DNA of 64,000 bases, taken from contig JAHDQK010000033.1 in NCBI GenBank assembly GCA_018433885.1, positions 1 through 64,000 of the forward strand, written 5' to 3'. This DNA comes from Candidatus Cloacimonadota bacterium. Its GTDB lineage: Bacteria; Cloacimonadota; Cloacimonadia; Cloacimonadales; Cloacimonadaceae. Position 1 is the stretch's first letter. Each line of letters begins with the position of its first letter. Below, piece after piece: positions 23,126 to 54,952 of this stretch. The position numbers were made by a program, and so were the translations under genes. Below the pieces are notes generated by a model. It had not been told where the DNA came from and did no database searches. It saw only the letters and a program-made list of their open reading frames with translations.

Positions 23126-23594
23126 GCGGTCGCGGCATTCTGCGATTATTTAAAAATCACGTCAATGTGATGTAGTGTGGGCGACACAAATTATTGATAT
23201 CCCGGGTTTTCAAATATCGGATCAAATGGTATTCTCAATGATGCCGGATGTATGGGCACGAGAATCCCGCCAAGGGAGACACAATTGTAACGGAGGATTT
23301 CGAACCCCCGAATAATGGAACGACAGATTGACGTGACCGTCAAACAGCCCCGCCAGGGTCGACACCGATCTTAGCGAGGGTGTGTAGCGTAGCGAAGCCC
23401 CTCGTAGTAAGGAAAAAGCGATCCCGAGTCCCTCGCGGGCGACACAAGTCAATGGGATAGCATGTAGCACAATAACAACACCAACATGTTTCTATGGTTA
23501 TGTAATTTAAGCTTGGAGAATCCTGTTCCAGATCATTCCACAGAAAAAAGAACCAGGAGATGGCAGCGGATATAATGGCCTCGAATCATGCAAT
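23126..23594. repeat. Gene-free stretch with GGGCGACACAA repeats and small palindromes
   Basis: No credible gene. GGGCGACACAA occurs at 23179-23189 and 23437-23447, and GGGAGACACAA at 23274-23284, all in the same orientation. TTGACG-tgac-CGTCAA (23328-23343) is an inverted repeat, and CGAGGG / CCCTCG can pair around 23375-23405. The composition is patchy, suggesting a compound of small dispersed repeats. The short open frames here have no start signals. Confidence 0.5.
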
Positions 23595-23690
23595 CTCGCC
23601 CCCATTGCTTGAAGCAGTGGCGAAGCTGTGTTGATACAGTGGCTACTGCTGCAAAGAAGCATCGCGATACTTACGACGAATGGGGGAGAA
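23595..23690 (-). repeat. 96-bp inverted-repeat element, copy A
   Basis: Begins CTCGCCCCCATTGC and ends GAATGGGGGAGAA, so CCCCCATT (23599-23606) and AATGGGGG (23679-23686) form perfect ends. It aligns without gaps to copies at 38118-38213 and 54773-54868; I count about 57 of 96 identical bases with the latter. Shared inner blocks include GCAGT and TTGA. Strand is given relative to copy B. It lies between convergent genes, away from any coding region. Confidence 0.7.
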
Positions 23691-38117: not shown

Positions 38118-38213
38118 CTCATCCCCATTTTGCAAACAAGTGCCGTTGCAGTCTTCTTCCAGTGTGGACTGCATCAAGACGGCATCGGCACTGCTTTGGG
38201 CAAAGGGGGTGAG
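38118..38213 (+). repeat. 96-bp inverted-repeat element, copy B
   Basis: Ends are CTCATCCCCATTTTGC and GCAAAGGGGGTGAG, which pair with few mismatches. Its reverse complement aligns without gaps to copy C (54773-54868); I count about 65 of 96 identical bases, including TGCCC, GCAGT, ATGCCGT and TTGA blocks. It fills the space between the nitroreductase stop (38215) and the xseA start (38031). Confidence 0.72.
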
Positions 38214-54579: not shown

Positions 54580-54952
54580 AAGTCTATTACTCCTGATAAG
54601 ATTTCTTTTATGATTCACCTATTTTTGATCCTGCTATGTTGTCAATGAATATCCAACATATTGGCGTATCTTGGTTATCAGGGTGCAGTCAGCGGGGTAG
54701 AGAACCCTTATATCAACAGAATGACCTCACTATCACATCTCCATCTCTCATATTAGCTATGTAGCAGATGATTTCAACCCCATTGCCCGAGGCAGTCGCC
54801 ATGCCGTTTTGAAGCTGTGCAGACTGCATGAACACTCCGCAGACATCGCTGGGTGGAATGGGGATGAACTTATGCTCGTTTCGTTATTGTGGGAGGTGGT
54901 GATCAGATAGATATGGTGATCACACAATGATCTTTTATTTCATGGGCGAGCA
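54580..54952. other. Intergenic region between uvrB and threonine dehydrogenase genes
   Basis: 373 bases without a gene. It contains copy C of the 96-bp element (54773-54868) and two direct copies of GGTGATCA (54898-54905, 54915-54922; period 17), with GATCA-TTGTG-TGATC pairing next to them on the minus strand. On the minus strand a TTGACA lies at about 54652-54647 upstream of the dehydrogenase gene, without a clear -10 box. Nothing else recognised. Confidence 0.5.
54773..54868 (-). repeat. 96-bp inverted-repeat element, copy C
   Basis: Ends TTCAACCCCATT and AATGGGGATGAA pair over 12 bases with one mismatch. Gap-free alignment with copies A and B over the full 96 bases. Situated between uvrB and the threonine dehydrogenase gene. 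Strand is relative to copy B. Confidence 0.72.

Follow-up and report, generated by a model that had tools for sequence, protein, structure and literature searches.

Three intergenic copies (A, B and C) of a 96-bp inverted-repeat element lie in the DNA analysed here, a 64,000-nucleotide stretch of a Candidatus Cloacimonadota genome (the window), and they raise the question of what kind of element this is. The initial annotation, made from the letters of the window, named as possibilities a mobile repeat of MITE or REP type, an RNA with a conserved fold, a binding site for a protein, or coding sequence in decay. We studied the three copies, the family to which they belong in their own genome (G000, 2.42 Mb in 91 contigs, in which the window is contig C8) and comparable sites in related genomes, with one genome analysed per species.

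The three copies aligned without gaps over 96 nt as annotated, where random pairs of 96-mers from the window average 24 identities. On the given strand 57 of the 96 bases agreed between A and C, the number previously counted, and 56 between A and B. The pair B and C also agreed at 57 positions, not at the ~65 given before; 65 identities are obtained when B is compared with C in reverse complement, because the element itself is nearly palindromic. The inverted-repeat ends (CCCC-ATT / AA(T/A)-GGGG) were present in all three copies, and the intergenic position also held for all of them: copy A is 3' of a TPR gene, copy B is between xseA and a nitroreductase gene, 6 bp past the 3' end of the latter, and copy C is between a gene for an SDR/epimerase-type dehydrogenase and uvrB (Table 1). 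Another dispersed intergenic sequence, CCCCGCCAGGG..GCGACAC..TTAGCGAGGGTG..GTAGCGTAGC, was located directly upstream of site A, at 23345-23460 of the window; it also occurs at ~37.1 kb of contig C16 in the same genome, close to another site.

Table 1. Sites in the window and parts of site C (window coordinates).
Feature	Position	Strand	Details
Site A, complete two-arm	23595..23690		86-nt core 23600-23685; own-genome model match 23596-23690, both strands, E 1.4e-19 / 4e-16
Site B, complete two-arm	38118..38213		core 38123-38208; model match 38118-38212, both strands
Site C, complete two-arm	54773..54868		core 54778-54863; model match 54773-54868, both strands
Site C, symmetry axis	between 54820 and 54821		logo of 80 copies
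Site C, left conserved end CCCATT	54779..54784	+	90-100% conserved, 80 copies
Site C, left arm, 11-nt unit 1	54790..54800	+	family consensus AAGCAGTCGCC; alignment of 66 copies, lag-11 identity
Site C, left arm, 11-nt unit 2	54801..54811	+	family consensus ATGCCGTCTTG; alignment of 66 copies, lag-11 identity
Site C, central block around symmetry axis	54812..54829		family consensus ATGCAGTGTGGACTGCAT; logo, central four bases variable
Site C, right arm, 11-nt unit 2', inverted	54830..54840	-	logo and alignment of 66 copies
Site C, right arm, 11-nt unit 1', inverted	54841..54851	-	logo and alignment of 66 copies
Site C, right conserved end AATGGG	54857..54862	+	94-100% conserved, 80 copies

The possibility that only these three copies exist, at chance-level similarity, failed clearly in searches of the own genome. 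BLASTn with copy C found ~45 places, with further copies down to E = 3e-13; a covariance model built from the three copies found ~90, and further places were added by a model of sequence alone, built with 66 copies. An exhaustive local search covered the window and the complete or nearly complete contigs C12, C16, C55, C62, C70, C78 and C87 (829 kb, 34% of the genome, mostly its largest contigs). These eight contigs held 45 sites, all with E < 1e-5, and a single match fell between that level and chance (E 0.0036). Extrapolation from this density gives about 130 sites per genome. Sampled copies were found between main genes, as defined by a simple ORF caller, and their neighbours were codirectional in 43 cases, divergent in 18 and convergent in 16; the placement is neither terminator- nor promoter-like and has no preferred gene orientation.

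The length of the sites is quantised. From CCCC to GGGG, 80 of 89 located copies measured exactly 86 nt, and the variants were mostly longer by ~11 nt (five copies) or ~22 nt; both arms were lengthened in one of the +22 copies, and among the exceptions is the symmetric 4+4-unit copy at 38.5 kb of contig C55. The rough consensus was CAYMCCCATTnCCCGAAGCAGTCGCCATGCCGTCTTGATGCAGTGTGGACTGCATGAACACGGCTTCGCGACTGCTTCGnGGAATGGGKnTGA. The arms are inverted runs of 11-nt units: within-arm identity was high at lags 11 (0.42) and 22 (0.43), as against 0.15-0.27 at other lags. In the central block, core positions 37-41 and 46-50 were conserved at 85-97% and the central bases carried low information (logo of 80 copies). 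Half-site matches were paired in 85 of 89 instances, the other four being located at low-scoring full sites.

The constraint on the sites acts at the level of duplex DNA. In G000, 25.6 of 43 positions paired between the arms of the same copy, as compared with 26.05 +/- 0.25 when arms were shuffled between copies; in the sister species G006 (see below) the within-copy value was lower than the shuffled one (26.9 vs 28.9 +/- 0.7). The arms do not covary in either species and, therefore, hairpin formation is not maintained and the site acts as duplex DNA. Selection for a hairpin, in RNA or in single-stranded DNA, was rejected on the negative outcome of this arm-shuffle test, and the structured RNA of the initial annotation was not supported: pairing was no better within than between copies, and Rfam gave no match at gathering or permissive thresholds. 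Substitutions among G000 copies comprised 746 A-T/C-G swaps, 618 transitions and 439 others, favouring the weak/strong class; the same counts were 348/324/367 in the flanks and 312/154/79 in G006, and they are not independent, as the copies share ancestry. An excess of A-T/C-G swaps over transitions is the opposite of what neutral drift normally leaves. The annotated clustering of substitutions at third codon positions was not reproduced, since the information per position was 1.02, 1.06 and 0.95 across the three phases. Open frames were no commoner, in any frame, than among copies with shuffled columns; a decayed coding origin is thus not supported, because the +11-nt variants would break any frame, besides the absent codon signal. 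A protein-binding site on duplex DNA was the best supported of the options first listed, on account of the constant length, the 11-bp units, the degenerate but position-specific conservation, the two-fold symmetry and the positions kept between species, and the argument that a constant length with a diverged interior reflects selection found support as well.

The sites are also evenly spaced. Intervals in the mapped contigs of G000 (n = 37) had a median of 14.6 kb, a minimum of 9.05 kb and a CV of 0.41; along the chromosome the sites follow one another at about 9 to 18 kb. Neither the minimum nor the CV was reached in 20,000 random placements, nor in another 20,000 drawn among ORF-free runs only; the placements in ORF-free gaps produced on average 9.6-13 intervals shorter than 9 kb and never fewer than three, whereas none was observed. 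A 43-kb gap on contig C16 contains 31 kb absent from G006 and was therefore ~12 kb before; the remaining intervals fitted a hard-core model with a 9-kb exclusion, without any further selection. The segment without counterpart in G006 (~31 kb, C16 ~73.8-104.8 kb, L146-L148) carries a site on its right-hand border but no internal one.

By BLASTn the G000 family was undetected in 59 relatives, and the model gave weak matches in same-genus genomes, which correspond to the same architecture written in other words. We compared mainly G006, a sister species of the same genus, and G020, a closed genome of another genus; the other relatives were only sampled. A palindrome scan alone recovered the G006 family as its top matches. 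The matrix made for this family identified 57 sites in 780 kb. Almost all scored above 80 bits, and 31 were in sequence outside the matrix training; the 41 intervals had a minimum of 5.8 kb, a median of 10.3 kb and a CV of 0.45, and the within-arm identity was 0.53 at lag 11 and 0.45 at lag 22. Several more relatives, of which short pieces were inspected by eye, showed palindromes with 11-nt units of their own. Near-perfect tandem 11-mers (CACTAGGGGAT repeated) were noted in similar intergenic arrays of G018, of a different genus (L210 at 108 and 13076, L211 at 11588). In G020, 436 kb contained 20 sites of three unrelated, interleaved families, and neighbours of different families were never less than 11.7 kb apart (P = 0.0001, families rotated independently).

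Positions were conserved between G000 and G006 with the sequences replaced. A G006 site was present in the orthologous gap for 8 of the 10 G000 sites testable in collinear gaps (241/7/2/8, P = 6e-10), an association that survived gap-length matching (P between 2e-6 and 0.02). Similarity between orthologous sites did not exceed that between non-orthologous ones (23.6 vs 22.1 +/- 6.1); therefore, across the genome, the places persist while their sequences are replaced. Unshared sites in the same comparison numbered 2/10 and 7/15, i.e., sites are gained and lost, and with an information content too high for point mutation some copying step is needed.

Literature searches returned no description of such elements, and the DNA patterns of the G000 and G006 families had no match among collections of genome and viral contigs, from which own-genome records may be left out. 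Known systems resemble the sites in part. ParR/parC and iteron-type centromeres likewise consist of arrays of direct repeats one helical turn long; in plasmid R1 parC these are 11-bp direct repeats, and such arrays are bound cooperatively by a small protein. The sites studied here differ in being chromosomal, in their ~130 dispersed copies and in their inverted arms, and par genes were not recognised beside any of the three sites in the window. With matS/MatP, Noc boxes and parS they share many dispersed copies, action as duplex and, if our reading is right, a role in chromosome organisation. Those motifs, however, are 13-16 bp long and concentrated in chromosomal regions; they show no even spacing along the chromosome, and their sequences are not exchanged as a whole set from one species to the next.

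The reading that we prefer, although it falls just short of an even chance, is that of a duplex site for the docking or wrapping of a multimeric protein, which would partition the chromosome every ~10-15 kb. The site is a two-fold symmetric array of 11-bp units, each one helical turn long, with three or four units in an arm and CCCATT/AATGGG as caps. A putative multimeric DNA-binding or DNA-wrapping assembly would dock on it symmetrically with its subunits one helical turn apart. The ~10-15 kb segments between sites would make these loop, topological or segregation anchors. A locus would need a site of this architecture at some distance from the next one, and the actual letters would be interchangeable; letters that differ between species, and between interchangeable families in one genome, would be expected if binder and site co-evolve. 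The spacing would then be set by selection rather than by an insertion rule. Slightly less probable still, in our judgement, is the fuller proposal of a chromosomal ruler, in which anchor sites defined by their architecture (two inverted arms whose units are one helical turn long), placed about every 10-15 kb around the genome and keeping their positions while their sequences can be replaced, would be read by a DNA-organising machine. That related species have such sites in the same places with different letters hints at a so far undescribed means by which bacterial chromosomes are marked or organised. Bacterial chromosomes are thought to be split into supercoiled domains of ~10 kb with mostly stochastic boundaries, and we know of no bacterium that fixes domain boundaries by evenly spaced sequence marks. 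If the sites do mark domains, the size of a domain would be inherited and could be read and tested, and the concerted exchange of sequences at positions that persist would offer a bacterial counterpart to centromeres, which evolve fast.

Several observations count against the preferred reading, among them the gain and loss of sites with the copying step that it calls for, and the fit of the 9-kb exclusion model without any further selection. A canonical ParB was found in all relatives tested, as a single one in G000 and most relatives, and segregation therefore has another known route; distributed centromeres owing to the absence of ParB were rejected, as ParB is present. Besides, the AT content had no shared 11-bp phase across families, which makes recognition of all of them by one assembly harder to explain.

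The main rival, which we regard as unlikely, is that the sites are selfish, MITE-like repeats mobilised in trans, with arm units that would serve as transposase-binding sites and with target immunity holding new copies several kb from existing ones, the even spacing then resulting from near-saturation. MITE-type repeats (ERIC, Correia/NEMIS, RUP) are likewise ~100 bp long, intergenic and non-coding with inverted-repeat ends, and Mu, Tn3 and Tn7 are known to show target immunity at kb range. The hard-core exclusion (d = 9 kb) fits this explanation, as do the differences in presence between species and the seven G006 copies contained in ~300-bp units with ends CTAGTG..CACTAG, two of them where the G000 genes abut directly. 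Accordingly, the MITE-like part of the annotated mobile repeat may stand as a dispersal step, because species differ through gains and losses of positions and a G006 subfamily rides in such a unit; it leaves the spacing across unrelated sequence families in G020 without explanation. Also unlike MITEs, the sites consist of 11-bp units, keep their positions with a site of a different family in orthologous gaps, and have left no decaying copies or solo arms, as judged from the mapped contigs of G000 and from G006. As for an autonomous element, no separated arms flanking a gene were found in the 829 kb searched. Target immunity of the Mu type is disfavoured, since the occurrence of Mu-transpos_C does not follow that of the sites (4 in G000, 0 in G006); the four Mu-type transposase genes (PF09299) of G000 are on contigs C21, C3, C78 (1.5 kb) and C73. 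Concerning target sites, inverted ends were present, and clean empty sites were found only for the G006 300-bp type I units, at CTAG/TAG; in alignments of orthologous gaps, the flanks of the 96-bp G000 copies were too diverged for target-site duplications to be called. Examples of the seven units, with the site in mid-unit, are at 72412-72687 and 95375-95667 of G006 contig C1 (L179, L180), and for two units the corresponding place in G000 is cleanly empty, at 72.02 and 125.38 kb of C16. If the sites were selfish after all, spacing rules would be acting between unrelated repeat families, which to our knowledge is undescribed.

Strong wrapping sites of DNA gyrase, a type IIA topoisomerase, setting supercoiling domains are a weaker candidate, and an improbable one. 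Gyrase reads a ~130-bp two-fold symmetric motif with a 10.75-bp GC periodicity by indirect readout, and strong gyrase sites, such as the phage Mu SGS and the intergenic BIME-2 of E. coli, thought to contribute to genome organisation, resemble the present sites in being long (~130 bp), two-fold symmetric and periodic near the helical turn (PMC6379681). The sites are symmetric, have an 11-bp period and an even spacing on the scale of domains, and measure ~96-120 bp, somewhat less than 130 bp. A GC periodicity of 10-11 bp was reported for all gyrases tested, with cleavage-domain preferences for -4G/+8C, -2A/+6T and +1G/+4C, of which -2A/+6T is common to all enzymes (PMC12324340). The centre T-GNNC-A, found in all G006 copies, fits +1G/+4C (100% in G006, 54% in G000), but the place of -2A is taken by G, and at -4 G000 has C and G006 either C or G. 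Nor does the AT content agree: almost no 11-bp component was detected in three of five families (power 0.01 in G000, G020a and G020c, as against 0.19-0.22 in G006 and G020b), and the phases differ. The weak/strong profile of the sites misses the phage Mu strong gyrase site, which ranks only within the top 16-34% of positions. High base-specific conservation, above all the ends CCCATT/AATGGG at 90-100%, exceeds indirect readout and, together with the 11-nt sequence repeats, the fixed length and the even spacing, sets the sites apart from gyrase sites and BIME-2.

Still more doubtful is that these are recombination or rearrangement sites, at which pairs lying too close would be lost by deletion of the intervening DNA, leaving wide and even intervals, and between which inversions would occur. 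An inversion in G006 (contig C13) has precisely the extent of a G000 module delimited by two adjacent sites (C12, 60.99-76.91 kb), and breakpoint gaps with sites were in excess over rotated sites in both species (4/8, P 0.011, in G000; 6/11, P 0.0002, in G006). Long collinear gaps, however, hold sites nearly as often (8/24), so that the excess may merely reflect a shared preference for long intergenic gaps, and breakpoint enrichment beyond such gaps was rejected. The copies are, in addition, too diverged for efficient homologous recombination, and a recombinase with sequence specificity would not be expected to cause exclusion across families. The G006 junction of the inverted C12 module holds a degenerate site.

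Hairpin repeats of the REP/REPIN type, structured RNA or remnants of coding repeats are barely credible: the sites share with RAYT-associated (TnpA-REP) repeats that they are palindromic, intergenic, species-specific and dispersed singly, but no Y1_Tnp/RAYT gene exists in G000 (PF01797, 0 matches in a 99.87% complete genome; patchy in relatives), which leaves the RAYT-driven part of the annotated mobile repeat unsupported, and arms without covariation, a constant length varying in 11-nt steps, the even spacing and the empty Rfam and codon searches count against this group of readings. Finally, many contigs start 200-550 bp from a site (C6, C13, C62, C63, C67 and C77 in G000; C2, C5, C8 and C16 in G006), perhaps because other repeats in the same intergenic gaps break the assembly.
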